This document shows, one piece after another, positions 3,498 through 61,573 of a stretch of 64,000 nucleotides of DNA. The stretch spans positions 2,889,366 through 2,953,365 of the forward strand of contig NZ_CP132359.1 in NCBI RefSeq assembly GCF_030758975.1. The letters are read 5' to 3'. The stretch comes from Bosea beijingensis. Its GTDB lineage: Bacteria; Pseudomonadota; Alphaproteobacteria; Rhizobiales; Beijerinckiaceae. A program made the translations under genes and the position numbers. Below the pieces are notes generated by a model. It ran no database searches. It was given only the letters and a program-made list of their open reading frames with translations, and was not told the origin of the DNA. Position 1 is the first letter of the stretch. The number at the start of each line of letters is the position of its first letter.

Positions 3498-3720
3498 GTC
3501 GTCTCCGGTGATCTGGCGGGCCGTCATATAGCAGGGAAATGCGGCTGCTCCACAAGGGACCGCATCGCTGTTGCCGCGCAGCGATGGAGAAAAAACGCGC
3601 CCGAAAAGGGACATCTTGTCGTCCGAAGCATTGTTTCGCGCGCCGGAGGGGACTTGCCTCGGAGCGCAAATCGGAGTGGCATGCCGACCGGCGGCAGCAC
3701 GCTTTGCCATGGAGAACGCC

Positions 3721-4185: not shown

Positions 4186-4208
4186 TCTTCAGCAGGTTTC
4201 TGTTTTGG

Positions 4209-4236
4209 AAACGCCGCGCTGAAAGGCGCGGCGTTT
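4209..4236 (+). terminator. Rho-independent terminator after the secreted repeat protein
   Basis: A perfect 11-bp stem (AAACGCCGCGC paired with GCGCGGCGTTT) with a six-base loop, followed by TTTCATGTTTT. It lies 24 bases after the stop codon of the gene ending at 4185. Confidence 0.85.
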
Positions 4237-4275
4237 CATGTTTTGGGAGCCTGTTTCAGGCTCGCTGAAAGCCCA

Positions 4276-4410
4276 TTGTCATTCCGGACAAGCCGCGTAG
4301 CGGCGCAGATCCGGAACCCACGACTGGGTGAGGCATCCATGCCGCGTTGCCGACGGCTCACCCGGTCGTGGGTTCCGGGTTCTTCGCTACGCGCAGCCCC
4401 GGAATGACAA
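4276..4410. repeat. Dispersed 135-bp palindromic element, copy 1
   Basis: The ends are perfect inverted repeats: TTGTCATTCCGG at the left and CCGGAATGACAA at the right. A second internal inverted pair is built on GGAACCCACGACTGGG and GTCGTGGGTTCC. The same ends and the same internal core occur again at 20003-20135. No ORF is present, so this is a non-autonomous, hairpin-forming intergenic repeat of the kind common in Rhizobiales. Its centre differs from that of copy 2. Confidence 0.85.
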
Positions 4411-4451
4411 GCGTGGGGCCCGAAACGGCTAAGGCCACCCGTCAACACCAC

Positions 4452-5387: not shown

Positions 5388-5456
5388 CCAATTTCCTCCG
5401 TTGATATCCCACCCCAAGGCTAGATCAGGATGGCAGCCGGGGGAAACCCGCTTTTT

Positions 5457-42141: not shown

Positions 42142-42942
42142 TTACCATGCGGGCCGGGTATTAAGCGAGGTGAGCGGGAAGCGCTCGACCTCGCCGAGAA
42201 GCTCGACCAGCCGGTCGACGGCGAAATCCAGCGTCGCCTCGCCCTTCGCCGCGGTTGCAAGCGTGGCGTCGCCGCAGGCACCGGCTGGGTTGAGATCCTG
42301 CGCCTGCCAGCCCGGCTTGGCGCCGCCGCCGAGAGCGATATGGCGGAACCGATCGTCCCATTCCGTGGTTGCCGGGCGGAAATCCTGGGCCTTCTCCATC
42401 ACGACATTGGGAGCGTCCAGCGCCAGCATGACCGAGGTCTCCATGTCACCGGCATGGATGCCATGACGCATCTCATGGTCGGAATAGAGCCCCTCTGGCA
42501 TGCCGAGACCGAACCAGCTCACGCTGAAGACCAGCATGTTGTGCCGCACGCGCAGTTCGCGGGCGACGATGTCCATCGTGCTGATATTGCCGCCATGGCT
42601 GTTGAGCAGCACCATCTTGCGCACGCCGGATGCCGCAACGCAGGCGCCGATCTCGCACCACATGGTAATCAGCGTCGCGGCCGAATGGGTCAGCGTGCCC
42701 GGATAGCGCGCATGCTCGTTGCTCTTGCCGATCGACTGGCGCGGCAGGAACAGAACCGGGCTCTCCTCCGGCAGCTTGCGGGCGAGGCGCTCGACGACGC
42801 CGCCGACCACGGCGGCATCGACCGAGAGCGGCAGATGCGGACCGTGCTGCTCGGTGGCGCCGACCGGCAGGACGGCGATCAGCTTGCCGTGGTCGAGCTG
42901 CGAGAAGGCCTCGCTGGTATAGTCGGACCAGTAGCGTTTCAC
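42142..42942 (-). CDS. Creatininase-family amidohydrolase
   Basis: A 266-residue metal-dependent hydrolase. The metal-site motif is PVGATEQHGPHLPLSVDA (Glu31, His33, Asp42), with NSHGGN (His117) and GDMETSV (Glu169), as in creatininase and related cyclic-amide hydrolases. It lies ten bases after the fused permease gene, so it probably opens a lactam, cyclic ureide or similar compound brought in by the importer. Creatinine itself is only one possibility; family members also act on other amides. Confidence 0.9.
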   Translation of the reverse strand: MKRYWSDYTSEAFSQLDHGKLIAVLPVGATEQHGPHLPLSVDAAVVGGVVERLARKLPEESPVLFLPRQSIGKSNEHARYPGTLTHSAATLITMWCEIGACVAASGVRKMVLLNSHGGNISTMDIVARELRVRHNMLVFSVSWFGLGMPEGLYSDHEMRHGIHAGDMETSVMLALDAPNVVMEKAQDFRPATTEWDDRFRHIALGGGAKPGWQAQDLNPAGACGDATLATAAKGEATLDFAVDRLVELLGEVERFPLTSLNTRPAW

Positions 42943-42952
42943 GGCTTTCTCC

Positions 42953-44638
42953 TCAGCGGGCGTAGAGCTTGTCGAGCCGCACCACGCGCCCGACCAGCCA
43001 GAGCGTCACGACGGTCGCGACGATCAGCAGGGCCGAGATGGCATGGGCGGTGGGTTCGAGCGTGGTCGCTTCCGAATAGATCCGGACCGGCAGCGTGGTC
43101 ATGCGCGCGGTGGTCAGGAAGCTCGTGACGGTGACCTCGCCGAAGCTCATCAGGAAGCCGATGACGCCGGCCGCGAACAGGCCGGGCGCCAGCGCGGGCA
43201 GCGTCACCATCAGGAAGCGCCGGACCGGGCCGGCACCGAGGCTGTCCGCCGCCTCCTCCTGCGCCCGGTCGAGCGCCTGCACCGAGGTGGTGAGCAGCGC
43301 GATGACGAAGGGCAGGACGATGACGACATGGATGCCGACGAGGCCGAGGAAGGCGGGGATCGCGACATAGACCTGCAGCAGCTTGAGCATGCCGACGCCG
43401 ATGACGATCTGCGGCAGCGAAAGCGGCAGGAGCCAGAAGGCGAGCAGCGCGCTGCGCCCCGCGAAAGGATAACGGGCAAGCGCGAAGGCGGCCGGCGTCG
43501 CCAGCGCCAGCGCGACCAGCACCGAGACCACGGCGAGCTGGAGCGAGACCAGGAAGGAGGCGGTATAGGAGCCGCCGAACAGAACCTGCTCGTACCATTT
43601 CCAGGTGAAGCCGCGGAAGCCGGCGGCTGTCGCCAGGGGCACGTCGTTGACGCTTTGGACGACGACGAGGCCGAGCGGCAGCAGCAGCAGACCGATGCTC
43701 GCCGTCAGCAGCAGCCGCGACAGGGTGGGGCCGAGCGTTTCGGCCAGCGTGACGAACCAGCCGGGCAGGGAGACGGGCTCGCCCGGCTTGCCAGCGCGCC
43801 AGGGCATTGCACGGTTGAGTCCCCATGTGCAGAGCCCGGCGAAGATCAGGCCGGTCAGGGTGACGACGATCGCCAGCGCCGAGGCGAGCGGAGCATTGAG
43901 ATTGGCGACTGCCTCCTGCATCACCAGCATGCCGATGGTCATGACCTTCTTGCCGCCGAGCAGCGTCGCCGAGACATAGGCCGTGGTCGACATCAGGAAG
44001 ACGATGACGGTGCCCGAACGCAGGCCGGGCAGGGAGAGCGGCAGGTCGACGGTGAGGAAGCGTATGGCTGGACCGGCGCCGAGGCTCTCGGCGGCCTCGT
44101 GGACGCGCGGCGAGGTACTCTGCATGGTGTCGTAGAGCGCAATCACCATGAAGGGCATGAAGACCTGTGCCAGTCCGACGACGACCGCGCCATGGGTGAA
44201 CAGCATCCGGGTGGCGGTCGGCAGGCCGACGAGCCGGAGCGCGCTGTTGATCAGCCCGTCCGGCGAGAGCAGCAGCATGACGCCGAGCGAGCGCACCACG
44301 ACATTGGTCAGGAGCGGAATGAGGATGACGGCGAAGGCGAGGGCGCGCCACTGCACCGGCATCCGCGCCAGCCAGTAGGCGAGGGGATAGCCGAGCACTG
44401 CCGAGATCGCCGTGGTGGCGAGGCCGATCAGGATGGTTTCGCTGAGAACCTGGAAGTAGAAGCCGTCCCCGGCGATCTCGGTGAACTGCGCCAGCGACAG
44501 CGGCTGGATCAACGGCGCGAACGGGTCGCCACCGGCCTGGAGCGAGAGCAGGATCACCACCGCCAGCGGAGCGGCGAAGGCGAGCAGCAACCAGAGCGTG
44601 ACCGGCGCGGAGAGCGCCGGTCCTTTCCAGCCGGTCAT
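42953..44638 (-). CDS. Fused two-domain ABC permease (PotB-PotC type)
   Basis: A 561-residue protein with two complete BPD_transp_1 modules. The first (about residues 10-275) has the EAA loop VHEAAESLGAGPAIRF; the second (about 315-555) has EEAADSLGAGPVRRF. Spermidine/putrescine-type importers normally use two separate permeases, so this is a natural fusion like that of ferric-ion or thiamine permeases. The start is ATG 44638, overlapping the stop of the binding-protein gene by four bases. Confidence 0.9.
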   Translation of the reverse strand: MTGWKGPALSAPVTLWLLLAFAAPLAVVILLSLQAGGDPFAPLIQPLSLAQFTEIAGDGFYFQVLSETILIGLATTAISAVLGYPLAYWLARMPVQWRALAFAVILIPLLTNVVVRSLGVMLLLSPDGLINSALRLVGLPTATRMLFTHGAVVVGLAQVFMPFMVIALYDTMQSTSPRVHEAAESLGAGPAIRFLTVDLPLSLPGLRSGTVIVFLMSTTAYVSATLLGGKKVMTIGMLVMQEAVANLNAPLASALAIVVTLTGLIFAGLCTWGLNRAMPWRAGKPGEPVSLPGWFVTLAETLGPTLSRLLLTASIGLLLLPLGLVVVQSVNDVPLATAAGFRGFTWKWYEQVLFGGSYTASFLVSLQLAVVSVLVALALATPAAFALARYPFAGRSALLAFWLLPLSLPQIVIGVGMLKLLQVYVAIPAFLGLVGIHVVIVLPFVIALLTTSVQALDRAQEEAADSLGAGPVRRFLMVTLPALAPGLFAAGVIGFLMSFGEVTVTSFLTTARMTTLPVRIYSEATTLEPTAHAISALLIVATVVTLWLVGRVVRLDKLYAR

Positions 44639-45678
44639 CCGGCGATCTCGCGGTCGATCTTGCGCTGCCAGGCCGCGCGATTGGCGTTGATATAGGCCCA
44701 GTCGAAATCGACCATCTTGGCGATGTCGTCGCCGGCGAGCACCTTGCCCTTGAGGTCGGCGGGAATGGTGATGTTTCGCACGGTCGGCGAGTAGTAGATC
44801 TCGCGGGCGAAGGCGAGCATGCAGGGCTCGGACAGGTGGAGGTTGATCCACTCCTCGGCCAGGACCTGGTTGCGGGTGCCCTCGGTGATGCAGCCGACAT
44901 TCATCGAGATGGCCTGGCCCTCGACGGGGTCGGCGATGACGATGTTGGGGTTCTTGGTCTCGGCATATTTGCGGGTGAAGGACGCGAATTCGACGCCGAT
45001 ATCGCAGATACCCTGGTCGAACATGTCGTAGAGCTGGACTTGGCTCGAATGGATCGCGGCGAAAGGTTTGAGCTGCTTCACCTTCTGGATCACCATGTCG
45101 AAATCCTTCTCGGTGCCGCCGAAGGTCCGCGCCGTCATCATCAGCGCGGCGATGCCTTCGGTGCCGAGACCTTCGGGCCAGCTCACGCGGCCTTTCCACT
45201 CGTCGTTCCAGATATCCTTCCAGGAGGTGACCGGCTTCTTCGCCTTGCGGCCGTCATAGACGATGGTGCAGGGATTGAAGGCCACGCCGTAGCCGCCGAT
45301 CTTGGCGGGTTCGTAGAGATGCTCGTATTGCGGCACGGCCTTGCTCGGGGCCTGCGTGACCTTGGCCTGCAGCGCCTCGCGGCTTTCGTAGATGTTGAGA
45401 TAGATCACGTCGAAGCTCGGCCGGCCGCGTTCGGCATAGGCACGGGCGCGCCGCTCCAGCGTGTTGCCGAGGACATAGCTGACCTTGCAGCCGTATTTTT
45501 CGACAAGCGGCTTCTCGACATGCTCGCGCACGATGCGCTCCTGCGCGCCGCCCCAGATGCCGACGACGAGCTCGTCGCCCTTCTTGGGCTGGGCGCGGAC
45601 CGGCGTAATGAAATGCACGGGCGCGGCGAGGCCGGCGCCGAGCACCAGCTTGTTGAAGGTCCTGCGGGAAGGCGTCAC
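44635..45678 (-). CDS. Spermidine/putrescine-type ABC binding protein with Tat signal
   Basis: A receptor of about 347 residues of the SBP_bac_8/PotD group. The N-terminus carries a twin-arginine signal, SRRTFNKLVLGAG, so it should be exported folded through Tat. The mature part starts DELVVGIWGGAQER and has VIYLNIYESREAL and IVIADPVEGQAISMNVG. The likely start is GTG at 45678 with AGGAG seven bases upstream; a GTG at 45687 touches that site and is less likely. The ligand could be a polyamine or another cationic or amide compound, given the creatininase neighbour. Confidence 0.9.
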   Translation of the reverse strand: MTPSRRTFNKLVLGAGLAAPVHFITPVRAQPKKGDELVVGIWGGAQERIVREHVEKPLVEKYGCKVSYVLGNTLERRARAYAERGRPSFDVIYLNIYESREALQAKVTQAPSKAVPQYEHLYEPAKIGGYGVAFNPCTIVYDGRKAKKPVTSWKDIWNDEWKGRVSWPEGLGTEGIAALMMTARTFGGTEKDFDMVIQKVKQLKPFAAIHSSQVQLYDMFDQGICDIGVEFASFTRKYAETKNPNIVIADPVEGQAISMNVGCITEGTRNQVLAEEWINLHLSEPCMLAFAREIYYSPTVRNITIPADLKGKVLAGDDIAKMVDFDWAYINANRAAWQRKIDREIAG

Positions 45679-45692
45679 GGCTGGCACTCCTG

Positions 45693-46724
45693 TCAGATGA
45701 AGGTGGCGCCGCCGGGCAGCGCGATGACGCTGCCGGGAGCGCCCACGGGCGGGGGCGGGATATCGGAAGGCAGGATCAGGCGGATGGTGCCGGCCTCGCT
45801 CGCGAGGTCGACCTCGAAGCTCTCGCCGAGATAGGCGACCGACGCGATCGTGCCGGAGACGCGCAAGGGGCCTTGCGGCTTGTCCGAGAGGCGCAGGCGC
45901 GAGGCGCGCAGGACGAGGCGCCCGACGCCGTTCGGGGCGAGCTCGCAGGTCAGCCCCGGCGCATGGAACAGGCCGTTCTTCGTGCTTCCCGCAATCACGG
46001 TGCGGGCACCGAGGAAGCTGGCCGAGAATTCCGAGGTCGGTGCGTCGCAGAGCTGGCGCGGCGTGCCGAGCTCGCGGATGACGCCTTTCTCCATTACCGC
46101 GACGCGGTCCGACATGGCCAGCGCCTCCTGCTGGTCATGGGTGACGAAGATGGTGGTGATACCCAGGCGCTGCTGCAGCGAGCGGATCTCGTTGCGCATG
46201 TCGGCGCGCAGGTTGGCGTCGAGATTGGAGAGAGGTTCGTCGAGCAGCAATACCTCGGGCTCTACCACGAGTGCGCGGGCGAGCGCGACGCGCTGCTGCT
46301 GGCCGCCGGAGAGCTGGGAGGGATAGCGCTCGGCGAAGCCACCGAGCCCGACCGTCTCCATCGCAGCCCGTGCCCGCTCGCGCCAAACCTGCTTCGGCAG
46401 GCGGCGCATCCTGAGGCCGAAGCCGATATTGTCGAGCACGGTCAGGTGAGGGAACAGCGCATAGGACTGGAAGACCACGCCGATATTGCGCTGGTAGGGC
46501 TTGCGATGCGTGATGTCGCGGCCGGCCAGCAGCACGCGACCGCCCGTCGTCGGCACGAAGCCGGCGATCATGCGCAGTGTCGTCGACTTGCCGCAGCCGG
46601 AGGGGCCGAGCAGGGAGAGAAGCTCGCCCTTGCCGATCTCAAGCGAGAGCCGGTCGACCGCGAGCGCGCCGCCATAGCTGGCGCTGAGGGAATCGAGTGT
46701 GAGGTAGCCGGAAGCGGCCGTCAT
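45693..46724 (-). CDS. Spermidine/putrescine-type ABC ATPase (PotA-like)
   Basis: A 343-residue ATPase with Walker A GPSGCGKST (near residue 40), Q-loop VVFQSYALFPHLTV, signature LSGGQQQRVALA, Walker B LLLDEPLSNLD and a C-terminal TOBE domain (about 265-340). It is the first importer gene on this strand, 156 bases downstream of a LysR regulator and five bases before the binding-protein gene. Confidence 0.95.
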   Translation of the reverse strand: MTAASGYLTLDSLSASYGGALAVDRLSLEIGKGELLSLLGPSGCGKSTTLRMIAGFVPTTGGRVLLAGRDITHRKPYQRNIGVVFQSYALFPHLTVLDNIGFGLRMRRLPKQVWRERARAAMETVGLGGFAERYPSQLSGGQQQRVALARALVVEPEVLLLDEPLSNLDANLRADMRNEIRSLQQRLGITTIFVTHDQQEALAMSDRVAVMEKGVIRELGTPRQLCDAPTSEFSASFLGARTVIAGSTKNGLFHAPGLTCELAPNGVGRLVLRASRLRLSDKPQGPLRVSGTIASVAYLGESFEVDLASEAGTIRLILPSDIPPPPVGAPGSVIALPGGATFI

Positions 46725-47985: not shown

Positions 47986-49023
47986 TCAGAGCGTCTGCGT
48001 GACCTTGCGCAGATGCGGTGGGCGGTCGGGGTCGAGCCCACGTGCGGCCGCGAGCGCAGCGATGCCACCGTAGAAGGCGCGGGCCTGCAGCAGGGGCATC
48101 AGTGCGGCCGGGCTCTCGGCCGGCACAGGCAGGGCGATACCGGGAGCAGCGCCGGAACCGGCATAGGCGACCTCCACGCCGAGCGCGGCGAAGCTGCGCG
48201 CAACCGAGAGCGTGCTCTCGCTGCCTTCATCGGCCGGATCGAGCACCAGCGCCGGAAAGCCCGGCCCGACCAGTGCCATGGGCCCATGCAGCACCTCGGC
48301 GGCGCTGAAGGCTTCGGCATGGATGCGGCAGGTCTCCTTGAACTTCAGCGCCATCTCCTGGGCGATGCCGAGGCCCAGCCCACGGCCGATGACATAGAGG
48401 CTCGTCGCGTCCTTGAGGCGCAGCAGGAAGGGCGACCAGTCGCAGAGCCCGGCCTGCCTGAGGAGCTCGGGCGACCTCACCAGCGTATCCGCAAGGCCTC
48501 GCTCGCTGCTCCAGACCGCGGCGAGATGGAGGAGCGCGATGCCGGTGGCGAGGAAGCTCTTGGTCGCGGCGACGCTGGTCTCGGGACCGGCACCGAGCGG
48601 CAAGGCAACATCCACCAGTTCGGCCAGCGGCGATTGCATGTCGTTGATCAGGCCGATTGTCAGCGCGCCGCCGCGCTTGGCCGTTTCGGTCAGTTGCAGC
48701 GCATCGGGGCTGAGGCCGGATTGCGAGGCAGCGATGAAGACGGCTCCGGAGAGGTCGAGCTCCTCGCGATAGACCGAGGCGAGGCTGGGGCCGAGCGAGG
48801 CGACTGGCAGGCCGAGCGTCCGCTCCAGCAGATATTTGCCATAGGTCATGGCGTGGTCGGAGGAGCCGCGGGCACAGGTCGCGATGAAGGCGGGCCTGCG
48901 CCGGCGCAAGCGTTCGCCGAGCTCGACCATCGCGCCGGCATTGGCCGAGATCTGGCGGGCGGCGACGTCGGCAGCTTCCGCCGCCTCGCGGGTGAGAAGG
49001 GCTTCAGGCATCGATCCGGTCAT
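47986..49023 (-). CDS. Double-SIS sugar-phosphate isomerase/deaminase-like protein
   Basis: A 345-residue protein with two SIS modules. The N-terminal part FIATCARGSSDHAMTYGKY and the region AGPETSVAATKSF are shared with GlmS isomerase domains and with NagB-II glucosamine-6-phosphate deaminases; a related family, FrlB/FraB, cleaves phosphorylated fructosamines. The glutaminase half of GlmS is absent, so this is not cell-wall GlmS. It is the last gene of the sugar-importer operon, overlapping the kinase gene by 20 bases. It probably deaminates, deglycates or isomerises the kinase product. Confidence 0.85.
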   Translation of the reverse strand: MTGSMPEALLTREAAEAADVAARQISANAGAMVELGERLRRRRPAFIATCARGSSDHAMTYGKYLLERTLGLPVASLGPSLASVYREELDLSGAVFIAASQSGLSPDALQLTETAKRGGALTIGLINDMQSPLAELVDVALPLGAGPETSVAATKSFLATGIALLHLAAVWSSERGLADTLVRSPELLRQAGLCDWSPFLLRLKDATSLYVIGRGLGLGIAQEMALKFKETCRIHAEAFSAAEVLHGPMALVGPGFPALVLDPADEGSESTLSVARSFAALGVEVAYAGSGAAPGIALPVPAESPAALMPLLQARAFYGGIAALAAARGLDPDRPPHLRKVTQTL

Positions 49024-49951
49024 GGCTGCACAGCAGGTCCCGGCTCATGGCATCGACATCGGCACGGTCGAGCCGCGTTCCGGCTCCGCCGACCGAACGC
49101 ACGGAGAGAGTGCCGCAGACGACGCCTTCCGCCAAGGCCTGTTCGGGCGAGCGCGCTGCAAGCCAGGCGGCGAGGAATCCGGCATTGAAGGCATCGCCGG
49201 CTCCGGTCGTATCGATCACCGGTCCGCCTTCGGGCGCCGGTATGGAAAAGGCGGTGTTGCGCCGGAACAGGCGCGCGCCGTTGCCGCCGTCCTTGACCAC
49301 CACGACAGGGAAGTGGCCGGCGAGGCGGCTGCCGGCTTCATCGAGATCGTCGCTACGCGCTATGGCGATCGCCTCGGCGGCGTTGGGCAGGAAGATATCG
49401 GCACCGGCAGCACGCTCGATCAGGTCTGGCCGGCGGATCCAGTCGTCGTCCCAACTCGGATCGAGCGAGACGGTGAGGCCGGCGCGCTTTGCCCTGCCGA
49501 TCAGGTCAGGAACCTCGGCAAGCGTCGCGAATTCGGCGATGTGGAGATGGCGCGCGGCGGGGTCGGCGAGGGCCGCGTCGAGCGTGGCCGGGCGGGCGCT
49601 GCCGGCGCGCCGCGACAGGAAGGCGCGCTCGCCGTCCTGCACCATGACGACGGTTGGCTGCGGGCCGGCCTCAGGCGCATGTTCGAGCCAGCGAAGATCG
49701 ACGCCGCTTTCCGCCAGCGCAGACGCCAGCGTGCCGGAAAGCGGGTCCGTGCCGATGCGGGCGAGCAGGCCGGCTCGCGTGCCGAGCGCAGCGAGATGGG
49801 CGGCCGTGATGAAGCCGCCGCCACCCGGCACGATCGCGACGGTTTCGGCGAAACGTTCCTCGCCGAGGCATGGCATCGCGTCGAGCCCTCGGAAGACGAT
49901 GTCGCAGTAGAGCCGGCCGATGCTGAGGACGAGGTCGCGCCCGGCGCTCAT
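49004..49951 (-). CDS. PfkB-family (ribokinase-like) carbohydrate kinase
   Basis: A 315-residue kinase. The N-terminal VPGGGGFITAAHLAALG is the sugar-binding glycine segment and the C-terminal DTTGAGDAFNAG (residues 247-258) contains catalytic Asp253. It phosphorylates a sugar or sugar derivative with ATP. It overlaps the ATPase gene by four bases upstream and the SIS gene downstream. A PfkB kinase followed by a SIS enzyme also occurs in fructoselysine and fructose-asparagine pathways. Confidence 0.93.
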   Translation of the reverse strand: MSAGRDLVLSIGRLYCDIVFRGLDAMPCLGEERFAETVAIVPGGGGFITAAHLAALGTRAGLLARIGTDPLSGTLASALAESGVDLRWLEHAPEAGPQPTVVMVQDGERAFLSRRAGSARPATLDAALADPAARHLHIAEFATLAEVPDLIGRAKRAGLTVSLDPSWDDDWIRRPDLIERAAGADIFLPNAAEAIAIARSDDLDEAGSRLAGHFPVVVVKDGGNGARLFRRNTAFSIPAPEGGPVIDTTGAGDAFNAGFLAAWLAARSPEQALAEGVVCGTLSVRSVGGAGTRLDRADVDAMSRDLLCSHDRIDA

Positions 49952-51024
49952 AGGGCGCGCTCGGTCGCCGCATCGAACAGGCGAAGAGCGTCGATGCCGG
50001 CGCCAAGGCGGACCTCGTGGCTAACGACCGGCGGCGCCTTGGCCGAGGCCGAGGCGAGGATCAATCCATCGCCATGCTCGACATGGACGAAGGTTTCGGA
50101 CCCCAGCGGCTCGACAACCGCGACCTTGCCGGTGAGGACGAGATCGGCGTTTTCGCCGGACGCGAGCACGCGCAGCTCCTGCGGGCGGACGCCGACCAGA
50201 ACCTCCATGGGAAGCGGGGCCGGGCGGGACGGCAGGGCGATGGCATTGCCTGCCAGCTCCAGCGTCGGCTTTCCATCGACAATGCTCGTCTTGGCCGGCA
50301 GGATGTTCATCGTCGGAGAGCCGATGAAGCGGGCGGTGAAGACGTCGGCCGGCTTCTCGTAGAGCTCCATCGGCGCGCCGACCTGGAGGATGCGGCCGTC
50401 GCGCATCACCACGATGCGGTCGGCCAGCGTCATCGCCTCGACCTGGTCATGCGTGACGAAGACGATCGTGCGGCGGAGGCGCTGGTGCAGGCGCTTGATT
50501 TCCAGGCGCATCTGGGCGCGCAATTGCGCGTCGAGATTGGAGAGCGGCTCGTCGAACAGGAAGGCGGCGGGGTCGCGCACCATGGCGCGGCCGATGGCGA
50601 CGCGCTGGCGCTGGCCACCCGACAATGCCGAGGGCTTGCGTTCGAGCAGCGGTTCCAAGCCGAGGATGCGAGCGGTCTCCTCGATCCGGCGGCGCTTCTC
50701 GGCCTTGTCGAGCTTCGCCGTATAGAGGCCGAAGCCGATATTCTCCGCGACGCTCATATGCGGGTAGATTGCGTAGTTCTGGAACACCATCGCGATGTTC
50801 CGCTCCTTCGGCTCCAGCCGGTTCACCGGCCGGTCGGCGATGGTGATGGTGCCGCCGTCGATCTCCTCCAGCCCCGCGATCATGCGTAGCGTCGTCGACT
50901 TGCCGCAGCCGGAAGGGCCGACGAAGACGACGAATTCGCCGTCTGCGATCGCGAGGTCGATGCCATGGACGACCTGCGTCTTGCCGTAGCGCTTGACCAG
51001 CCCCTGAAGCTCGATACCCGCCAT
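49948..51024 (-). CDS. Sugar-type ABC transporter ATPase (UgpC/MalK-like)
   Basis: A 358-residue ATPase with Walker A GPSGCGKST (near residue 37), signature [12 protein letters not shown], Walker B FLFDEPLSNLD and C-terminal regulatory/TOBE domains (about 240-350). It is placed after the lyase gene, with start and lyase stop sharing one base (TGATG), so transporter and enzymes are translated as one unit. Confidence 0.95.
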   Translation of the reverse strand: MAGIELQGLVKRYGKTQVVHGIDLAIADGEFVVFVGPSGCGKSTTLRMIAGLEEIDGGTITIADRPVNRLEPKERNIAMVFQNYAIYPHMSVAENIGFGLYTAKLDKAEKRRRIEETARILGLEPLLERKPSALSGGQRQRVAIGRAMVRDPAAFLFDEPLSNLDAQLRAQMRLEIKRLHQRLRRTIVFVTHDQVEAMTLADRIVVMRDGRILQVGAPMELYEKPADVFTARFIGSPTMNILPAKTSIVDGKPTLELAGNAIALPSRPAPLPMEVLVGVRPQELRVLASGENADLVLTGKVAVVEPLGSETFVHVEHGDGLILASASAKAPPVVSHEVRLGAGIDALRLFDAATERAL

Positions 51025-52538
51025 CAGGCCGCTCCCATCAGATCCGCGAAGGCGGCGTCGAGTTCATGGCGCGCGGAAGCCTCGCGGGCAGCGGTGGCAG
51101 TCGCGGCGAGGCCGGCGGCCACCAGTACGCCGCGGTAACCGGCGAAGGCGGCGGCAAGGGCCTGCGGCCCCGGACCGCCGAAGCGCTCGCGCACCGCGAC
51201 GAAATGCTCGGGCGAGACGGCCTCGGCAAAGGCGGCTTCGTTCAATTGCGGTTCGCGGCCGGCATGCTGGCGGAATGCCTTGCGGAAGGGGGCGTAGCCG
51301 TCGCGCGGCAGGTCGCCATCGGCGGCGACCACGGCGCGCGCGACATCGGCCGCGATCTCATGGGCGGTGCGGAAGGAGAGGCCTTCCGAACGGACCAGCG
51401 TATCGGCCAGCTCGGTGATGGTGATGCAGGAGCGGCGGATGTTCTCGGCGACGCGGCGCCCGTCGACCTGCAATGCCGGCAGCAGGGCGGCGAGCAGGCT
51501 CAGCACGCGCTCGCCCGTCGCGAAGGCCTGATAGCCGGCTTCGTTGGTTTCACTCTCGGCGTCGTTCATGTCTGTGAAGGGCGTGTTGTGGACGATGTCC
51601 CTGACCATCCGCGCGCGTGCCATCGCCTGCGATGACAGGTGGCGCAGATGCTCGATCGGCACCGGATTGCGCTTCTGCGGCATGATCGAAGAGATCTGCA
51701 CGAAGGCATTGGGCACATAGAGCTGGCCGACCTCGAAAGCGGTCCAGACCTGCAGATCCTGGATCAGACGGCCGAGATGCAGGAAGACGAGCTCGACCGC
51801 GCTATAGGTCGCGGTGAGGTAGTCGATGGCGGCGATGCAGCCATAGGAATTCTGGAGGGGCGCCGCGAAGCCGAGCAGATGCGCGACGCGAGTACGGTCC
51901 AGCGGGAAGCCCGAGGTGGTGATCGCGGCGGCACCCATCGGCGACAGGTCGAGCAGGGCACGGGCCTGCACCAGGCGCTCATGGTCGCGCAGCATCACCT
52001 CGACCGCGGCAGAGAGGTAATGGCCGAAGGTGGTCGGCTGGGCCGGCTGCCCATGGGTATAGGCGACGATCAGCGTTGCCTTCTCGTGCTCGGCGAGGTC
52101 AAGGGTCGCGGTGATCAGTGCTCGCAGCAGGCCGGCCATATGGTCGAGCCGCGGCTTGAGCGCGAGCTTGAACAGGGTGTGGTCGATATCGTTGCGCGAG
52201 CGGCCGGTATGGAGGCGCCCGGCATCGTCGGCCGGCAGGCGCTTCTTCAGCTCGGCCTCGATCAGGAAGAAATAGTCCTCGACCGTGCCGTCATAGCTCA
52301 GCTTGGCCGGGTCGATCTCGGCATCGATCGCGTCGAGCGCCCGGGCGATGCGGCCGGCAGTCGCGCGGGGCAGGATTCCGGTCTCCGCGAGCATGACGAG
52401 ATGGGCGCGGTCGATGGCGCGGAAGCTCTGGACGTGATGCGTCTTCGCCCCGTCGAAGAGCGGGCGCAGCACGGTCTCCTTGTAGACGGGATCGGGGAAA
52501 ACGGACGTGTCGTTCGCGCGGGGATCGGTTTTCGTCAT
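51024..52538 (-). CDS. Argininosuccinate-lyase-superfamily enzyme within a sugar-importer operon
   Basis: A 504-residue ASL/fumarase-superfamily lyase. Family motifs are TGRSRND (111-117), YTHGQPAQP with Thr161-His162, and SSIMPQKRNP (283-292) with Ser283/284; both catalytic positions agree with argininosuccinate lyase numbering. Differences include Gly in place of Leu/Gln after THG and Ile for the first Gly of the GSS loop. It lies between permease and ATPase genes of an importer, overlapping one and five bases from the other, which is not where arginine-synthesis argH is found. It probably eliminates fumarate or a similar acid from an imported N-linked conjugate, as EDDS lyase does. The substrate is unknown. 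Confidence 0.85.
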   Translation of the reverse strand: MTKTDPRANDTSVFPDPVYKETVLRPLFDGAKTHHVQSFRAIDRAHLVMLAETGILPRATAGRIARALDAIDAEIDPAKLSYDGTVEDYFFLIEAELKKRLPADDAGRLHTGRSRNDIDHTLFKLALKPRLDHMAGLLRALITATLDLAEHEKATLIVAYTHGQPAQPTTFGHYLSAAVEVMLRDHERLVQARALLDLSPMGAAAITTSGFPLDRTRVAHLLGFAAPLQNSYGCIAAIDYLTATYSAVELVFLHLGRLIQDLQVWTAFEVGQLYVPNAFVQISSIMPQKRNPVPIEHLRHLSSQAMARARMVRDIVHNTPFTDMNDAESETNEAGYQAFATGERVLSLLAALLPALQVDGRRVAENIRRSCITITELADTLVRSEGLSFRTAHEIAADVARAVVAADGDLPRDGYAPFRKAFRQHAGREPQLNEAAFAEAVSPEHFVAVRERFGGPGPQALAAAFAGYRGVLVAAGLAATATAAREASARHELDAAFADLMGAA

Positions 52539-52543
52539 GGCAA

Positions 52544-53386
52544 TCAGCCCTTGAGGCCGGCGAGGACCACGCCGCGCACGATATAGCGCTGGAGCAGCAG
52601 GAAGACGGTCAGCGTCGGCAGGGTCGCGAGCGCCGCGCCCGTCATGATCAATTCCCACTGGACCTGCGATTCCACCGCGAAGCTCGTGAGGCCGACCGGC
52701 AAGGTGTAGAGCTCCTTCGATGTCGTCACGATCAGCGGCCAGATGAAGGCAGTCCAGTTGCTGAGGAAGGTGAAGATCGCCAGCGCCGAGAGGGCCGGCG
52801 TCACCAGCGGCATGGCGATGCGCCAGAAGATCGCGAACTCGTTGAGGCCGTCGATGCGTGCGGCTTCGAGAAAGTCGTTCGGCACGGTCTCGAAGAACTG
52901 CTTCATGAGGAAGGTGCCGAAGGCCGTCATCATGCCGGGGAACATGATGCCCCAGTAGCTGTCGAGCCAACCGAAGTTCTTGGCCATGACATACCAGGGG
53001 ATGACCAGCATCTCGGTCGGGATCATCAGCGTCGAGAGGATGGCGATAAAGACGAGGTAGCGGCCGCGGAACTGGAATTTCGCCAGGGTGTAGCCGACGA
53101 GGCTGTCGAAGAAGACGTTCGAGAGCGTGACTGCGACCGCGATGCCGAAGGAATTGGCGAACCAGCGCAGGAAGCGGCCGTCCGAAAGCACGGTCACGTA
53201 GTTGGCGAGCGTCGGATGGGCCGGGAAGAAGGCGAGATCGTAGATCTCGGAGGAATCCTTCAATGAGGTCGCGAACATGAAGGCGAGCGGCGTCACCATC
53301 AGCAGGCCGCCGCCGAAGAGCAGCAGCCAGGCGATGATGCGGCCGGGCTCGATACGCAGGGCCAGAGGGGAGGCGACGGCGCTCAT
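52544..53386 (-). CDS. Sugar-type ABC transporter permease (MalG-like)
   Basis: A 280-residue permease with six helices and the EAA loop FLEAARIDGLNEFAIFWRI, typical of family-1 sugar importers. Start overlaps the stop of the MalF-like gene by one base; the lyase gene begins five bases downstream. Confidence 0.94.
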   Translation of the reverse strand: MSAVASPLALRIEPGRIIAWLLLFGGGLLMVTPLAFMFATSLKDSSEIYDLAFFPAHPTLANYVTVLSDGRFLRWFANSFGIAVAVTLSNVFFDSLVGYTLAKFQFRGRYLVFIAILSTLMIPTEMLVIPWYVMAKNFGWLDSYWGIMFPGMMTAFGTFLMKQFFETVPNDFLEAARIDGLNEFAIFWRIAMPLVTPALSALAIFTFLSNWTAFIWPLIVTTSKELYTLPVGLTSFAVESQVQWELIMTGAALATLPTLTVFLLLQRYIVRGVVLAGLKG

Positions 53387-54327
53387 CAGCGGTCCTTCAG
53401 CAGCCGGAGCTGCAGCAGCGAGACCACGAGCAGCACGAGGAAGAGCACGACGGTCTGGGCCGCGGCATAGCCCATGTCGAAGGAGGAGAACGCCGTCTGG
53501 TAGATCATCAGCACGAGCGGCTTGGTCGCGTTCAGTGGCCCGCCGGGGTCGCTGCTCGTCTGGCTGGTCATGTTGTAGACCTGATCGAAGATCCGCAGGA
53601 ACCCGATCGAGGAGAAGACGACGAGGAAGACGATCGTCGGCTTGAGCAGCGGCAGGGTGATGCGCCGCAGGATCGTCCCGTTCGAGACGCCGTCGATACG
53701 GGCCGCCTCGTAATAGGTCGTCGGAATCGCGCGCAGACCCGCCATGAAGATCACGACCTGGAAGCCGAGCCCGGCCCAGATCGCCGGCGCGAGCACGGCG
53801 GGCAGCGATTGCGTGGTCGAGCGCAGGAAAGGCTGCTGGGCGATGCCGAGCCCGGCGAGCAGGTTGTTGAACAGGCCGATCGGGACCGGCTGGTAGAACC
53901 AGCGCCAGACCCAGGCCATCGCCGCGGCGGTCGTCAGGAAGGGCAGGAAATACAGCGCCCGGATCAAGCCGTGCAGGAAGCGCACCCGGTCGAGATGATA
54001 GGCGATGGTGAAGGCGAGCAGCAGGCTGATCGGCGTGCCCAGCAGCAGGTAGAGTGCGGTGTTGCGGAAGACCTGCCAGAACACGGGATCTGCCATCAGT
54101 CGTTTGAAATTGGCCAGTCCGATGAAGGAGGGCTTGGTCAGCAGGTTCCAGTTGGTTGTGGCGATCCAGAAGGCTTCCAGCGTCGGATAGAAGCGCACCA
54201 CCGCATAGAACAGCACCGGCACGGCCAGGAAGGACCAGGCCCAGAGGACCTGCTTCTGGCGCATGCCGAGGCCCGACGGGAGGTGGGCGCCGGACCGTGC
54301 ATCGACACGAGACGAAGAGGCGTTCAT
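53386..54327 (-). CDS. Sugar-type ABC transporter permease (MalF-like)
   Basis: A permease of about 313 residues with FLAVPVLFYAVVRFYPTLEA as first helix and the EAA loop YYEAARIDGVSNGTILRRI. The start is set at ATG 54327; a GTG at 54357 overlapping the binding-protein stop is possible and would add ten residues. It partners the MalG-like permease. Confidence 0.93.
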   Translation of the reverse strand: MNASSSRVDARSGAHLPSGLGMRQKQVLWAWSFLAVPVLFYAVVRFYPTLEAFWIATTNWNLLTKPSFIGLANFKRLMADPVFWQVFRNTALYLLLGTPISLLLAFTIAYHLDRVRFLHGLIRALYFLPFLTTAAAMAWVWRWFYQPVPIGLFNNLLAGLGIAQQPFLRSTTQSLPAVLAPAIWAGLGFQVVIFMAGLRAIPTTYYEAARIDGVSNGTILRRITLPLLKPTIVFLVVFSSIGFLRIFDQVYNMTSQTSSDPGGPLNATKPLVLMIYQTAFSSFDMGYAAAQTVVLFLVLLVVSLLQLRLLKDR

Positions 54328-54358
54328 CGCGACAATCCGATCCGGCGCCCGGTCCACA

Positions 54359-55618
54359 TCACTTCTTGTAGAAGCGGTCGAGGATGGGCTGCTCGGCCTT
54401 GGCGGCCTCGTCGAGCGCGGCCTTGGCGTCCTGGTTCTGCAGCAGCACGCGGTTGATCATGTCGAGCGAGACCTGGCGCTGGGCCAACTCGTCGACGAAG
54501 ACCGTGGCGTGCGAATAGTTCAGCGCCTTGAGGAAGGGCCCGTAGACCGGGTGGTTCAGGTTCTTCTCGGTCTCGGCCGCTTCCTTGCGCGCCGGCAATT
54601 CGCCGACAGTCTCGAGCCAGAGCTGCATCGCCTCGGGCGTGGTGACGAAGGCGAGGAACTTCTTGGCCGCCTCCAGCTTCGGGCCGGTCGGCTTGGTGGT
54701 GATGGCGTTGACCCAGTAGCTGGCGAAATTCGCCGTCTTGCCATCGGCCGAGGCGGGGAGCTCGGCAACGCCCCATTCGAAGGCCTTGATGCCGCCGAAG
54801 GCGCCGAGGCGGAAGGAGCCGTCGATCGTCATCGCGGCGCGGCCGGCGCGGAAGGCTGCCTGGCCCTCGTCCATGAAGCCGACCTGGCCGACCTTGTGGG
54901 TCCGCTGGAGATCGGCATACCAGTTCAGCGACTTGGCGCCCGCCTCGCTGTTATAGGTCACGGTCTTGTTGTCGTCGCTATAGGGCGCGCCGCCGTTCTG
55001 GCGCAGAAGCGTCTCGCGCCACCAGTGATAGTCCTGGCCGGGGAAGTCGAGCGTGATACCGGCGGAGAGCATGTTGCCGGCGCCGTCGCGCTTGGTCGTC
55101 TTCTTGGCGAAGTCGAGCAGTTCGTCCACGGTCTTCGGCGGCTTGTTCGGGTCGAGCCCGGCCTCCTGGAAGAGCTTCTTGTTGTAGAACAGCGCGAGCG
55201 AGCGCACCGCCGTCGGCAGCGCGTAATACTCGCCGTCGCGCTTCATCGCCGAGACGATCGGGTAGAATTCCTTCTCGATCATGGCGGGTGGGAAGGCGTC
55301 GCGCGGCAGCGGCTGGATGAACTTGGCGCCGACAAAATTGTCGAGCCAGCCATAGAAGAGCTGCACGACATCCGGGCCCTGGCCGGCCGGCATCGCCGCG
55401 GCGATCTTGGTCTGGTAGTCGGCATAGGGGAAGGTCGTCTGCTTGACCTTGATGTTCGGGTTGGCGGCCTCGAAGCGCTTGATCAACTCGGTCATCGCCT
55501 TGACGCGCGCGTCGAAGACATACTGCCAGTATTCGATTTCGACGGTCTGCGCCTTCGCGCCGGCGACCGCGCCGACCGAGACCATCAGACCCAACAGCAT
55601 CCCGCGTAAGCCGCGCAT
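54359..55618 (-). CDS. Sugar-type ABC transporter binding protein (MalE/UgpB-like)
   Basis: A 419-residue family-1 receptor with a signal peptide ending near AGAKAQ (residue 24). The mature start TVEIEYWQYVFDARVKAMTE and the YWVNAITTKPTGPKLEAAKKF block are typical. Start 55618 has GGGGAGAG upstream; in-frame upstream starts at 55708 lie in the promoter gap. It is the first gene of the minus-strand operon that runs to the SIS gene at 47986. Confidence 0.94.
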   Translation of the reverse strand: MRGLRGMLLGLMVSVGAVAGAKAQTVEIEYWQYVFDARVKAMTELIKRFEAANPNIKVKQTTFPYADYQTKIAAAMPAGQGPDVVQLFYGWLDNFVGAKFIQPLPRDAFPPAMIEKEFYPIVSAMKRDGEYYALPTAVRSLALFYNKKLFQEAGLDPNKPPKTVDELLDFAKKTTKRDGAGNMLSAGITLDFPGQDYHWWRETLLRQNGGAPYSDDNKTVTYNSEAGAKSLNWYADLQRTHKVGQVGFMDEGQAAFRAGRAAMTIDGSFRLGAFGGIKAFEWGVAELPASADGKTANFASYWVNAITTKPTGPKLEAAKKFLAFVTTPEAMQLWLETVGELPARKEAAETEKNLNHPVYGPFLKALNYSHATVFVDELAQRQVSLDMINRVLLQNQDAKAALDEAAKAEQPILDRFYKK

Positions 55619-55718
55619 GACCCTCTCCCCTGATTTCGTTGTCCCCCATCCCTGTCGGTGAACGGCATTCGGGAGGCTTGCACGCATCGTCATCTCGCCG
55701 GCCCGCAACTGTCAATCT

Positions 55719-55743
55719 ATTAATTCACTTGAGTTGGATTAAT
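55719..55743. promoter_or_regulatory. 25-bp inverted repeat ATTAAT...ATTAAT, candidate ROK operator
   Basis: ATTAATTCAC at 55719 and the mirrored GTTGGATTAAT ending at 55743 form an imperfect palindrome, with perfect ATTAAT outer arms, in the divergent gap between the binding-protein gene and the ROK regulator. AT-rich palindromes of about this size are typical of NagC/Mlc/XylR-type ROK regulators. It lies in an otherwise GC-rich region. Confidence 0.6.
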
Positions 55744-55783: not shown

Positions 55784-57019
55784 ATGCCGAACCGTCCCAT
55801 CCCCCCGTCCCGCAGCGTCGCCGTCGGCACCAATCCCGAGCGGACGCGCAGCCATAACCGCCGGGTGGTGCTGGAAACCGTGCGCCAGCATGGGAGGTTG
55901 GGCCGCTCCGACATCGCGGTGTTGACCAAGCTTACGGCGCAGGCGGTCTCCAACATCGTCGCCGAACTGGTCGAGGAGGGCTTCCTCATCGAACTCGGCC
56001 GGCGCCGGACGGCGCGGGGCCAGCCGCCGGTCGAATTCGCCGTCAATCCCGAGGGCGGGATGACGGCGGGCATGGAAATCGCGGCCGATCACGTCACCAC
56101 CGTCCTCGTCGACCTCGCCGGGCGGATCAGGGCGCAGCGCATCGCGCCTCTTGCGGATACGACTGTCGCGGGCGTGCAGAAGACAGCCGCGGCTGAGCTG
56201 GCAGCGGTCAGGCGCGAGGCCGGCCTGCCCAAGCGCCTGCTCGGCTGCGGCGTGGTAATGCCCGGCCCGTTCGAGATCGAGGGCATGAATTCGGTCGGCA
56301 ACTCACCCTTGCCGGGCTGGGCCGGGCAGGATGCGGCGCAGTTGCTGCAGGACGCCCTGAACACGCCTGTGGTGATCGAGAACGACGCCAATGCGGCGGC
56401 GGTGGGCGAGCATCTCCACGGGCTCGGCCGCAACCTGCGCCATTTCTGCCAGATCTATTTCGGCGCGGGCCTGGGCCTCGGCGTCATTGTCGCCGGCCAG
56501 CCTTATCGCGGCGCCTTCGGAAATGCCGGTGAGATCGGCCATATTCCGGTCGTGCGCGACGGCCGCGCCTGCGCCTGCGGCGGGCATGGTTGCCTCGAAC
56601 GCTACGCTTCCTTCCATGCGCTGGCGGAGACGTTGCGCGAGGCCGGGATCGGAGGCGCCGAGCCCGAGGAGATCGCGAGCCTGCACGCGCAGGGCCATCC
56701 CGCCCTTTCCGGCTGGATCGCGGAGGCGGCCGGACTGCTGGCGCCGGTCGTGACGATGCTGGAGAACCTGTTCGATCCCGAAACCGTCATCCTCGGCGGT
56801 GAGATGCCGGATACGGTGATCGACGCGCTGATCGCGGCGATGGCGCCGCTGCCGATTTCGGTGGCGAACCGGCCGGGGCGGGCGATCCCGCGCGTCCAGC
56901 GCGGCGGGACCGGGCGCCTGACGGCGGCACTCGGCGCCGCGGCGCTGCCACTGCTCGACACGATGACGCCGAAGCTCGATCGCGTGAGCCTCACGCCGGA
57001 AGCGTCAATCTCCGAGTAA
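55784..57019 (+). CDS. ROK-family transcriptional repressor
   Basis: A 411-residue regulator with an N-terminal winged helix (about residues 28-70; SDIAVLTKLTAQAVSNIVAE) and a ROK sugar-kinase-fold domain. The latter has ENDANAAAVGE (Asp201) and GEIGHIPVV followed by the zinc motif CACGGHGC (Cys263/265/270). The kinase-like fold probably serves as sugar sensor. It is divergent from the sugar-importer operon and is its likely repressor. Confidence 0.93.
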   Translation: MPNRPIPPSRSVAVGTNPERTRSHNRRVVLETVRQHGRLGRSDIAVLTKLTAQAVSNIVAELVEEGFLIELGRRRTARGQPPVEFAVNPEGGMTAGMEIAADHVTTVLVDLAGRIRAQRIAPLADTTVAGVQKTAAAELAAVRREAGLPKRLLGCGVVMPGPFEIEGMNSVGNSPLPGWAGQDAAQLLQDALNTPVVIENDANAAAVGEHLHGLGRNLRHFCQIYFGAGLGLGVIVAGQPYRGAFGNAGEIGHIPVVRDGRACACGGHGCLERYASFHALAETLREAGIGGAEPEEIASLHAQGHPALSGWIAEAAGLLAPVVTMLENLFDPETVILGGEMPDTVIDALIAAMAPLPISVANRPGRAIPRVQRGGTGRLTAALGAAALPLLDTMTPKLDRVSLTPEASISE

Positions 57020-58689: not shown

Positions 58690-59817
58690 TCAGTGGGTGG
58701 TGGTGAAGCGGGCGATGTCGAGGCCGTCGATCGGCACGTTCGAGCGGCCGGTCGCAATGATCTCGGCCATCACGGCGCCGGCGCCGGGGCCGAGCTGGAA
58801 GCCATGCGCCGAGAACCCGAACTGGTGGTAGGCGCCCTCATGTCTGGCGCTTTTGCCGAAGACGGGCAGGTCGTCCGGCATGCGGGCCTCGATGCCCGCC
58901 CAGGCGCGTACGACGGGCGCGCCGCGCATGATCGGGAAGAGGTCCCAGACCGTGCCCGCGCTGATCGCGAGCTTGCGCCAGTCGAGCAGGGTGACGTTCT
59001 CGTCGCGCAGGGGGGTGCCGAGATGGCCGCCGCCGATCAGCACCGTGCCGTTGTCGAACTGCTTGAACGAGAGCTTTCGCCCGCGCAGGATTACCACCGG
59101 CTTGATGAAGGCCGGCAATGGCGCTGTGATCATCAGCATCGGGGCGATGACCTCCAGCGGCACGGGCTCGCCGAGATCGCTGGCGATGCGGTCGGCCCAG
59201 GCGCCGGCGGCATTGACGATGCGGGGTGCGAGGAAGGCGCCGGCATCGGTGGTGACGCGCCAGTTCGAGCCGTCCTTCTCGACCTTCGTGACGCGAACGC
59301 CTTCGCGGATGGTCGCACCGAGGCTCTCGGCCTTGCGCTTGAAGGCCTGCGTCGCGCGCAAGGGAATCGCGGCGCCGTCGCGGCGCGAGATCACGCCGCC
59401 TGGGCAGGTCTCGGAGACGGCCGGGACGATCGCGCGCAGTTCCCTCGCGTCGATCATTTCCTCATGATGGAAGCCGCGGAGCGTCAGGTCGGCGACGCGG
59501 GCGCGGCAGCCTTCCAGATCGGCCTCGTCCTCGGCGACCAGCACCTGCCCGTCGCTGGTGAAGCCGCAATCGTCGTCGACAAGTTCGGCGATATCGTGCC
59601 AGAGCGCCATCGAGGCGTTGGACAGCGGGATCTCCGCAACATGACGGGCAAGCTGGCGCACGCCGCCGGCATTGACGCCGGAAGCGTGGCGGCCGGCATG
59701 ATCCTTCTCGATCAGGATGACCGAGAGCCCGCGCATCGCACAATGCAGGGCGGTCGAACAGCCATGGATGCCGCCGCCGATGACGATGACATCGGCATTG
59801 CGACGGTCCCTCGTCAT
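58690..59817 (-). CDS. D-amino-acid-oxidase-fold flavoprotein (second copy)
   Basis: A 375-residue FAD-dependent oxidoreductase. The Rossmann motif is VIVIGGGIHGCSTALH (residues about 10-25), followed by EKDHAGRHASGVNAGGVRQ and the C-terminal FGFSAHGFQLGPGAGAVMAE. Enzymes of this group oxidise amines or D-amino/imino acids. Its start overlaps the upstream BFD-type flavoprotein gene by four bases, so it is likely to be the catalytic beta subunit of a split dehydrogenase. Confidence 0.9.
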   Translation of the reverse strand: MTRDRRNADVIVIGGGIHGCSTALHCAMRGLSVILIEKDHAGRHASGVNAGGVRQLARHVAEIPLSNASMALWHDIAELVDDDCGFTSDGQVLVAEDEADLEGCRARVADLTLRGFHHEEMIDARELRAIVPAVSETCPGGVISRRDGAAIPLRATQAFKRKAESLGATIREGVRVTKVEKDGSNWRVTTDAGAFLAPRIVNAAGAWADRIASDLGEPVPLEVIAPMLMITAPLPAFIKPVVILRGRKLSFKQFDNGTVLIGGGHLGTPLRDENVTLLDWRKLAISAGTVWDLFPIMRGAPVVRAWAGIEARMPDDLPVFGKSARHEGAYHQFGFSAHGFQLGPGAGAVMAEIIATGRSNVPIDGLDIARFTTTH

Positions 59818-61268: not shown

Positions 61269-61573
61269 TCCGCGGCCTCCGTCAGATGGCGGCGGCCATG
61301 CTGGGTCTCGATGCGCATGCCCTCCGCGAGCGGAACGAGGCAGCCCTGCCGGTTGCCGATGCCGTCGATGACGACGAGGCAGTCGAAGCAGACGCCCATC
61401 AGGCAATAGGGCGCGCGCGGCGTATCCGAGACCGGGGTCTCGCGGCAGGCGGTGATGCCGTTGGTCAGCAGGGCGGCGGCGACCGTGTCGCCCGCCCGCG
61501 CCGTCATCGGCCGGCCGTCGAAGGTGAAGCTCAGCTCCCCGCTCGCAGCAAGGTCAGCTATGGGCCGGAACAT
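61265..61573 (-). CDS. Small 2Fe-2S ferredoxin-like subunit
   Basis: A 102-residue protein with a plant-type 2Fe-2S pattern: Cys57, Cys62, Cys65 and Cys78 (PYCLMGVCFDC ... GC), plus Cys43. It corresponds to the gamma/small subunit of octopine-oxidase-like and hydroxyproline-dehydrogenase-like complexes. The start at 61573 (MFRPIADL) overlaps the upstream flavoprotein gene by 20 bases. Confidence 0.9.
   Translation of the reverse strand: MFRPIADLAASGELSFTFDGRPMTARAGDTVAAALLTNGITACRETPVSDTPRAPYCLMGVCFDCLVVIDGIGNRQGCLVPLAEGMRIETQHGRRHLTEAAE

Follow-up and report, generated by a model that had tools for sequence, protein, structure and literature searches.

Argininosuccinate lyase (ArgH) and EDDS lyase, which releases fumarate from N-substituted aspartates, are the closest described counterparts of an enzyme encoded in a 64,000-nucleotide stretch of Bosea beijingensis DNA (contig NZ_CP132359.1, positions 2,889,366 to 2,953,365; hereafter the window). 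The gene lies within an operon for sugar import and encodes a lyase of the argininosuccinate lyase (ASL) superfamily. With ArgH (TIGR00838; 2e9f, 9ggi) it shares the fold, Ser283, the pair Thr161-His162 and the SSxMPQKxNP loop. In contrast to ArgH, which carries His and Asp at the positions of Phe90 and Val293, the window lyase also replaces the loop KGLPLAYNKD by HNTPFTDMND. EDDS lyase (6g3d, 6rx8) has the same ASL fold and provides the best Foldseek matches, but it displays Gln at the position of His162 of the window family and occupies a separate long branch. Its positions 290 and 320, both Met in variant 6rx8, correspond to Val293 and Met324 in the window family.

At the level of the whole operon, the resemblance extends to several described pathways. 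The Amadori operons frl and fra likewise comprise an importer, a PfkB kinase and a SIS enzyme; they possess no lyase, and the SIS protein of the window appears to be of the NagB-II type. Thermococcal chitin catabolism includes a glucosaminidase, a kinase and a SIS deaminase. Here PIG-L deacetylation (by TkDAC, according to PMC4101496) precedes the release of glucosamine (GlcN), which is followed by GlcN-6-phosphate deaminase, but a glycosidase takes the place held by the lyase in the window operon. The bacillithiol enzymes BshB and Bca are PIG-L/LmbE hydrolases acting on the GlcN-malate core. According to the same source (PMC4101496) they make or presumably recycle GlcN-malate, whereas importer, lyase, kinase and deaminase of the window type suggest breakdown. 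Finally, the 2SL pathway, compared here by its description, combines a fumarate-releasing lyase with an ATP-binding cassette (ABC) importer and a deacetylase in a catabolic cluster; it acts on a thiol adduct, and the components listed in an excerpt of that description (PMC9706529) include no sugar kinase or deaminase.

Relationship of the lyase to ArgH

Both PF00206 and PF14698 exceed their cut-offs in the window lyase, placing it in the argininosuccinate lyase/fumarase superfamily. Against TIGR00838, the argH model, it reaches 283.0 bits, just above the cut-off of 279.5 bits, which would explain the usual annotation of its relatives as argH; two relatives from Deinococcus stay below the cut-off with 276.5 and 265.6 bits. 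The genome holds two full argH copies at C1:704317 and C1:3642605, with scores of 594 and 589 bits. A fourth member of the superfamily, encoded at C1:406295-407587 (L008/L012), scores 179 bits, under the argH cut-off, and looks like an exported protein with a signal-like N-terminus.

In a tree of 42 proteins, the four ArgH rows (both copies of the window genome, Thermus and plant ArgH) form a separate clade (support 100/99) without the window lyase. The latter falls together with 27 other alphaproteobacterial relatives and seven Deinococcus proteins into one clade, likewise supported by 100/99. A version of the tree with three extra rows (PurB, a Geminicoccaceae protein and the exported member of the superfamily) gave long-branch warnings, and the tree without these rows was used. 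EDDS lyase is found on a long separate branch, the position of which is unsure. Grouping of the window lyase with ArgH is rejected by the approximately unbiased (AU) test (p-AU 0.0006). Since the genome holds two better argH copies, the lyase belongs to a clade of its own and the AU test rejects its placement with ArgH, it is, as judged from sequence, not the biosynthetic ArgH. The preliminary description, made from the letters of the window, had suspected as much, subject to a search for a second argH, and both the tree and the two better copies bear it out. Another argH-like lyase (33%), encoded on a Cereibacter plasmid (L103), belongs to a gene set of another kind, with MmgE/PrpD, a SIS protein, an importer for amino acids and an asparaginase.

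Residues common to the alphaproteobacterial family, the Deinococcus rows and the ArgH rows include Thr111, Ser114, Arg115, Asn116, Asp117, His162, Ser283, Ser284, Met286, Lys289 and Asn291. Ser283 is present in all 28 family rows, and His162 in all 28 as well as in the seven Deinococcus rows. In structures of the superfamily, Thr111, Ser114, Arg115, Asn116, Ser283, Lys289 and Asn291 serve the fumarate side of the active site, and because they are kept, a substrate with a succinyl-type group would be expected. Thirteen further positions (Phe90, Phe91, Asp119, Ala159, Asp261, Gln281, Val293, His297, His317, Asn318, Phe321, Asp323 and Pro456) are alike in at least 27 of the 28 family rows and in all seven Deinococcus rows and differ in the four ArgH rows; in this count one ArgH row is gapped at Pro456, the ArgH rows are end-trimmed, and two positions distinguished only by ArgH gaps are excluded. 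Examples are Phe90 for His, Val293 for Asp and Asp323 for Tyr or Phe. Retention of Thr161-His162 and Ser283 amid altered neighbours, as put forward in the preliminary description, is thus confirmed on both counts. The ArgH-invariant His of the EDVHMN motif and the YNKDxQEDKE loop, which we take to lie around the non-fumarate part of the ArgH substrate, are replaced throughout the window lyase family. Among the listed structure matches of the lyase model is an H91 mutant of delta-crystallin. The thirteen signature positions may line the leaving-group pocket, and one reading of the conservation pattern is that the fumarate side was kept, the leaving-group side having been remodelled before the split between the alphaproteobacterial and deinococcal lines.

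An AlphaFold model of the lyase, calculated from an alignment of 15 sequences, has a mean pLDDT of 80.9, with low confidence at residues 161–165 and 203–209. In Foldseek the model matches EDDS lyase (6g3d and 6rx8, the best matches, E about 2e-23 to 7e-23) and ArgH. Structure comparison thereby favours EDDS lyase and the sequence profile Thermus ArgH.

Gene content of the related loci

A scan of species genomes returned 506 pattern-matched relatives of the lyase, the best 80 of which were kept for locus counts; 20 further genome regions and 21 plasmid regions were compared in addition, with genes called by a purpose-written caller. The counts include loci cut by contig ends (12 of the 80 are incompletely flanked, 68 fully flanked). 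Both permeases and the ATPase are found in 79 of the 80 loci, the extracellular solute-binding protein (SBP) in 78, the ROK regulator in 76 and the PfkB kinase in 71, and this recurrence argues against a chance arrangement of the operon. The SIS gene, present in 20 of the 80, stands outside the general core. NagB occurs in two loci and a ROK-type kinase in three; in some relatives a ROK kinase replaces PfkB. In the locus maps, the interval from the SBP gene to the kinase gene contains no glycosidase; genes farther out were mostly unscanned, so that a glycosidase or amidase there could escape. In the phylum sample, matches at 1e-110 were exclusively alphaproteobacterial (6 of 398 genomes). One lyase locus of the Ochrobactrum type, alphaproteobacterial in character, stands under the title Bacillus subtilis SK6B4 (L088), and the title or assembly looks wrong.

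Outside this core, the most frequent neighbour is a PIG-L protein with a length of some 800 amino acids (56 of the 80 loci). An EamA transporter gene accompanies it in 36 loci, each time adjoining PIG-L. In a sample of 385 genomes of Alphaproteobacteria, 12 carry the lyase and nine the PIG-L protein, and all nine are among the 12, eight of them with both genes on the same contig. The three lyase genomes without PIG-L are the window genome, G286 and G291. The value of P = 5e-16 calculated for this overlap under independence overstates the case, since the loci share ancestry. PF02585 exceeds the Pfam cut-off in all five partner PIG-L proteins scanned, and the HPDD and GQHGH-type metal motifs are present in 65 of the 66 PIG-L proteins of at least 600 amino acids, the remaining one being incomplete at the sequence start. 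PIG-L matches were also obtained in 31 plasmid records, 20 of which cover at least 80% of the protein. In each of four of these 20 records that were reached via PIG-L (Thalassospira, Qingshengfaniella, Parasedimentitalea and Roseinatronobacter), the operon of importer, lyase, UgpC and sugar kinase adjoins the PIG-L gene; the same operon adjoins PIG-L in Loktanella (with a ROK kinase) and Aminobacter NyZ550 (with PfkB), which were reached via the lyase. L084 has two PIG-L genes (1-1880 and 3134-5509) near one lyase operon, the first incomplete at the sequence start. At L109–L111 the lyase is divergent from PIG-L, and in L109 and L110 a gene that, judged by eye, resembles those for binding proteins of the peptide type stands in place of the sugar importer.

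The association reaches beyond Alphaproteobacteria. In all seven lyase-bearing plasmid loci of Deinococcus, the lyase is found together with SBP and two sugar permeases, and the loci of D. wulumuqiensis, D. ficus, D. deserti and D. actinosclerus additionally encode a ROK protein, a PIG-L of the short form and an annotated carbohydrate kinase, which in D. wulumuqiensis is ribokinase-like and below cut-offs. A long PIG-L is situated between lyase and SBP in D. wulumuqiensis, D. ficus and D. actinosclerus, in the last as judged from sequence. The long D. ficus protein combines a hydrophobic signal-like start with PIG-L and carbohydrate-binding domains. A PIG-L match was also obtained in D. psychrotolerans, the lyase being absent from the stretch examined. 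Bacillithiol has been chemically shown in the lineage to which Deinococcus belongs, according to PMC6282198.

Two unrelated deaminase families, NagB and NagB-II-type SIS proteins, occur in these loci and point to glucosamine-6-phosphate as the predicted product of the kinase. With TIGR00502, NagB of the Loktanella locus scores 251.6 bits, above the cut-off of 236.9, and with a narrower model 303 bits, under its cut-off of 326; NagB-like genes are also present in Skermanella (L062), Devosia limi (L086) and a genome of the window's genus (L122). Residues 9–345 of the window SIS protein align with residues 6–333 of 8eol, a solved SIS-type glucosamine-6-phosphate deaminase, with 224 bits, compared with 31.5 bits for 3eua, a solved putative fructosamine-phosphate deglycase. 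Elsewhere in the window genome NagA adjoins another NagB-II-type protein, so that an N-acetylglucosamine (GlcNAc) product could be handled as well. Class-V pyridoxal phosphate (PLP) genes lie near four loci (Loktanella, two Aminobacter and Devosia limi), and for the two compared with NCBIfam, from Loktanella and Aminobacter NyZ550, the nearest models are those of SufS, with scores under the cut-offs. Together with EamA beside PIG-L, these genes would fit a release of cysteine, a weak indication.

Proposed substrate and competing explanations

From the observed gene content, clade, residue signature and co-occurrence we infer each reaction, the order of the steps and the identity of the substrate. 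The explanation that we favour, at somewhat less than an even chance, is that the operon forms a catabolic unit for a glucosaminyl conjugate with a four-carbon dicarboxylate aglycone; the likeliest such conjugate is glucosaminyl-L-malate, on which bacillithiol is built. Our tentative choice of substrate is accordingly a bacillithiol-like (N-acyl)glucosaminyl malate. Fumarase, a member of the same superfamily, performs a C-O cut on malate itself, and L-malate would have the right configuration for this enzyme class. GlcN-malate is made by BshB from GlcNAc-malate and is part of bacillithiol (Cys-GlcN-malate). A review of LmbE-like enzymes (PMC4101496) states that all those known by 2014 have substrates with an N-acetyl- or N-acylglucosamine core.

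In the proposed sequence of events, the importer would take the conjugate into the cell, where the PIG-L protein, at loci that encode it, would first strip the N-acyl group (acetate or cysteine); from imported bacillithiol itself, it would set cysteine free. The lyase would then eliminate fumarate from the malyl group and free glucosamine in place of a glycosidase, a role that most likely falls to the lyase because the core operon holds no glycosidase. Phosphorylation by the PfkB (or ROK) kinase would yield glucosamine-6-phosphate, which NagB or the NagB-II-type SIS protein would convert to fructose-6-phosphate and ammonia. The window genome, in which no PIG-L was found, would use the free-amine form, GlcN-malate. 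The complete scheme, a bacillithiol-eating pathway of Alphaproteobacteria and Deinococcus in which an ASL lyase splits the glycosidic C-O bond of glucosaminyl-malate by fumarate elimination and thus replaces a glycosidase, is held more hesitantly still. The open-licence literature searched describes neither a breakdown pathway for bacillithiol or GlcN-malate nor a gene set combining PIG-L and lyase, and no publication on an argH-like gene inside a sugar operon turned up.

Several observations weigh against this proposal. To our knowledge, no member of the ASL superfamily is known to cut a glycosidic C-O bond. The PIG-L domain has no match in the window genome, and none of the PIG-L proteins tested reaches an equivalog cut-off; the short PIG-L of Deinococcus scores higher with MshB than with BshB. 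With NF046059, the NCBIfam model for NagB-II, the window SIS protein attains 308.5 bits, under the cut-off of 430. Three of the seven Deinococcus loci (L099, L135 and L136) possess neither PIG-L nor kinase, and nine loci (L104, L117–L121, L123, L124 and L137) encode the importer and the lyase but none of the other three enzymes (kinase, PIG-L and deaminase). Cysteine-related neighbour genes are few, and the product of the Roseinatronobacter gene labelled cysteine dioxygenase matches neither Pfam nor NCBIfam families. Moreover, the 68 fully flanked loci divide into 52 with PIG-L and no SIS gene and 16 with SIS and no PIG-L, never both, for which the scheme offers no explanation. The 16 SIS loci belong by title to Bosea, Alsobacter or Boseaceae, except for one Rhizobiales bacterium and one Methylobacterium assembly, and SIS without PIG-L is also seen in three incompletely flanked records of Brucella (former Ochrobactrum), in L115 and in Roseomonas. 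Unlike SIS, NagB is accompanied by PIG-L at three loci. Perhaps the compound is taken up in N-acylated form where PIG-L is encoded and as the free amine where SIS is. The nine loci without kinase, PIG-L and deaminase appear to represent a second, paralogous locus type, with a LacI-like regulator, importer, lyase (about 63–66%) and ATPase, and most of them come from the window's genus.

A conjugate with another acid or another amino sugar (neither malate nor bacillithiol), likewise opened by the lyase, is a doubtful alternative with some substance. All that the genes themselves prescribe is an amino sugar bearing an acyl group and an acid that can be eliminated; no equivalog is matched above cut-off by the PIG-L proteins tested, and the seeming peptide-type binding-protein gene paired with lyase and PIG-L in L109 and L110 also speaks for such a substrate. 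The intact set of seven residues that serve the fumarate side, on the other hand, leads one to expect a succinyl-type group.

Alternatively, the conjugate could be N-linked, so that the lyase would cleave a C-N bond, its customary target, in an N-(1,2-dicarboxyethyl) amino sugar, for example the Heyns product of fructose and aspartate, which leaves glucosamine, or the Amadori product fructosyl-aspartate. If the sugar nitrogen bears the dicarboxylate, however, the N-deacylase PIG-L of 56 of the 80 loci has no evident role, and the SIS protein is far closer to NagB-II than to 3eua; as a general account, N-linkage is unlikely. At the Bosea-type locus, such a conjugate must be taken seriously as a rival: ArgH and EDDS lyase are both known to cleave C-N bonds, the combination of PfkB and SIS resembles the Amadori operons, and the SIS loci, including the window, are without PIG-L. 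The preliminary description had proposed import of a conjugate between a sugar or amino sugar and an acid, with release of fumarate or a similar acid, phosphorylation and deamination. For an amino sugar–acid conjugate these steps fit the gene content, but its substrate examples have shifted: given PIG-L in 56 of the 80 loci and the NagB or NagB-II-type deaminases, N-succinyl amines, opines and Amadori compounds fit less well than N-acylglucosaminyl malate. An Amadori operon as such is rejected because of the NagB-II-type SIS protein and the PIG-L partner.

Removal of a 2-succino group from a thiol adduct, with the sugar genes serving the rest of a succinated low-molecular-weight thiol, is improbable, as no operon member would then free the sugar from its aglycone. 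Its model is the S-(2-succino) lyase 2SL, which, according to PMC9706529, releases fumarate from N-acetyl-S-(2-succino)cysteine and is found in yxe clusters together with genes for an ABC transporter and a deacetylase. The capture of an ordinary argininosuccinate lyase by the sugar operon would agree with the TIGR00838 score just above cut-off but is highly improbable in view of the two argH copies in the same genome, the separate clade, the AU test and the conserved replacement of ArgH-invariant residues.

Two further candidates were considered. A xenobiotic lyase of the EDDS/iminodisuccinate type is rejected because of the kept His162 and the separate branch. With the N-glycan stub GlcNAc-Asn as substrate, an aspartase-type cut would, by reasoning, leave the sugar bound.

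Organization of the operon in the window

The window genome consists of a single contig of 5.56 Mb, and its lyase is 97% identical to the homologue of Bosea robiniae. Along the minus strand, the genes follow in the order SBP, permease 1, permease 2, lyase, ATPase, PfkB and SIS (Table 1), with gaps of 1, -1, 5, -1, -4 and -20 bases; a LysR gene comes after the SIS gene. The coordinates confirm the earlier placement of the lyase between permease and ATPase genes, with a 5-base gap and a 1-base overlap, and the PfkB kinase, the SIS gene and the divergent ROK regulator (PF00480) are likewise found where they had been described. The close spacing suggests that the operon is co-transcribed.

Table 1. 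Features of the lyase operon and its regulator, in positions of the window
Feature	Position	Strand	Basis and remarks
ASL-superfamily lyase, 504 amino acids	51024..52538	-	open reading frame (ORF) list, PF00206 and PF14698; many relatives annotated argH
Extracellular solute-binding protein (SBP), UgpB/MalE type	54359..55600	-	alternative start TTG at 55708 would lengthen the ORF
Sugar ABC permease 1	53386..54357	-	family scans
Sugar ABC permease 2	52544..53386	-	family scans
UgpC/MalK-type ATPase	49948..51024	-	NF008653, 471 bits, cut-off 432
PfkB-family sugar kinase, predicted glucosamine kinase	49004..49951	-	family scans
SIS-domain protein, predicted NagB-II-type glucosamine-6-phosphate deaminase	47986..49023	-	below NCBIfam cut-off; end-to-end alignment with 8eol
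ROK-family transcriptional regulator, divergent	55784..57019	+	PF00480; NagC-like match below cut-off
Candidate operator, palindrome ATTAATTCACTTGAGTTGGATTAAT	55719..55743		ROK/SBP intergenic region

The spaced motif of the candidate operator recurs in 18 of 84 ROK/SBP intergenic regions, namely in that of the window and in those of 17 closely related loci of the Bosea type, and it arises in 0.06% of simple shuffles. Judged by eye, the operon is flanked by a polyamine-type ABC importer operon (42939-46724) and by FAD/iron-sulfur oxidoreductases resembling a D-hydroxyproline dehydrogenase set (58690-61406).

If the proposed breakdown of glucosaminyl-malate is true, a large family mostly annotated as argH, with 506 relatives in the scanned species genomes, would turn out to be lyases of catabolism that perform a new reaction, and what becomes of a major thiol of microbes would be open to direct testing.

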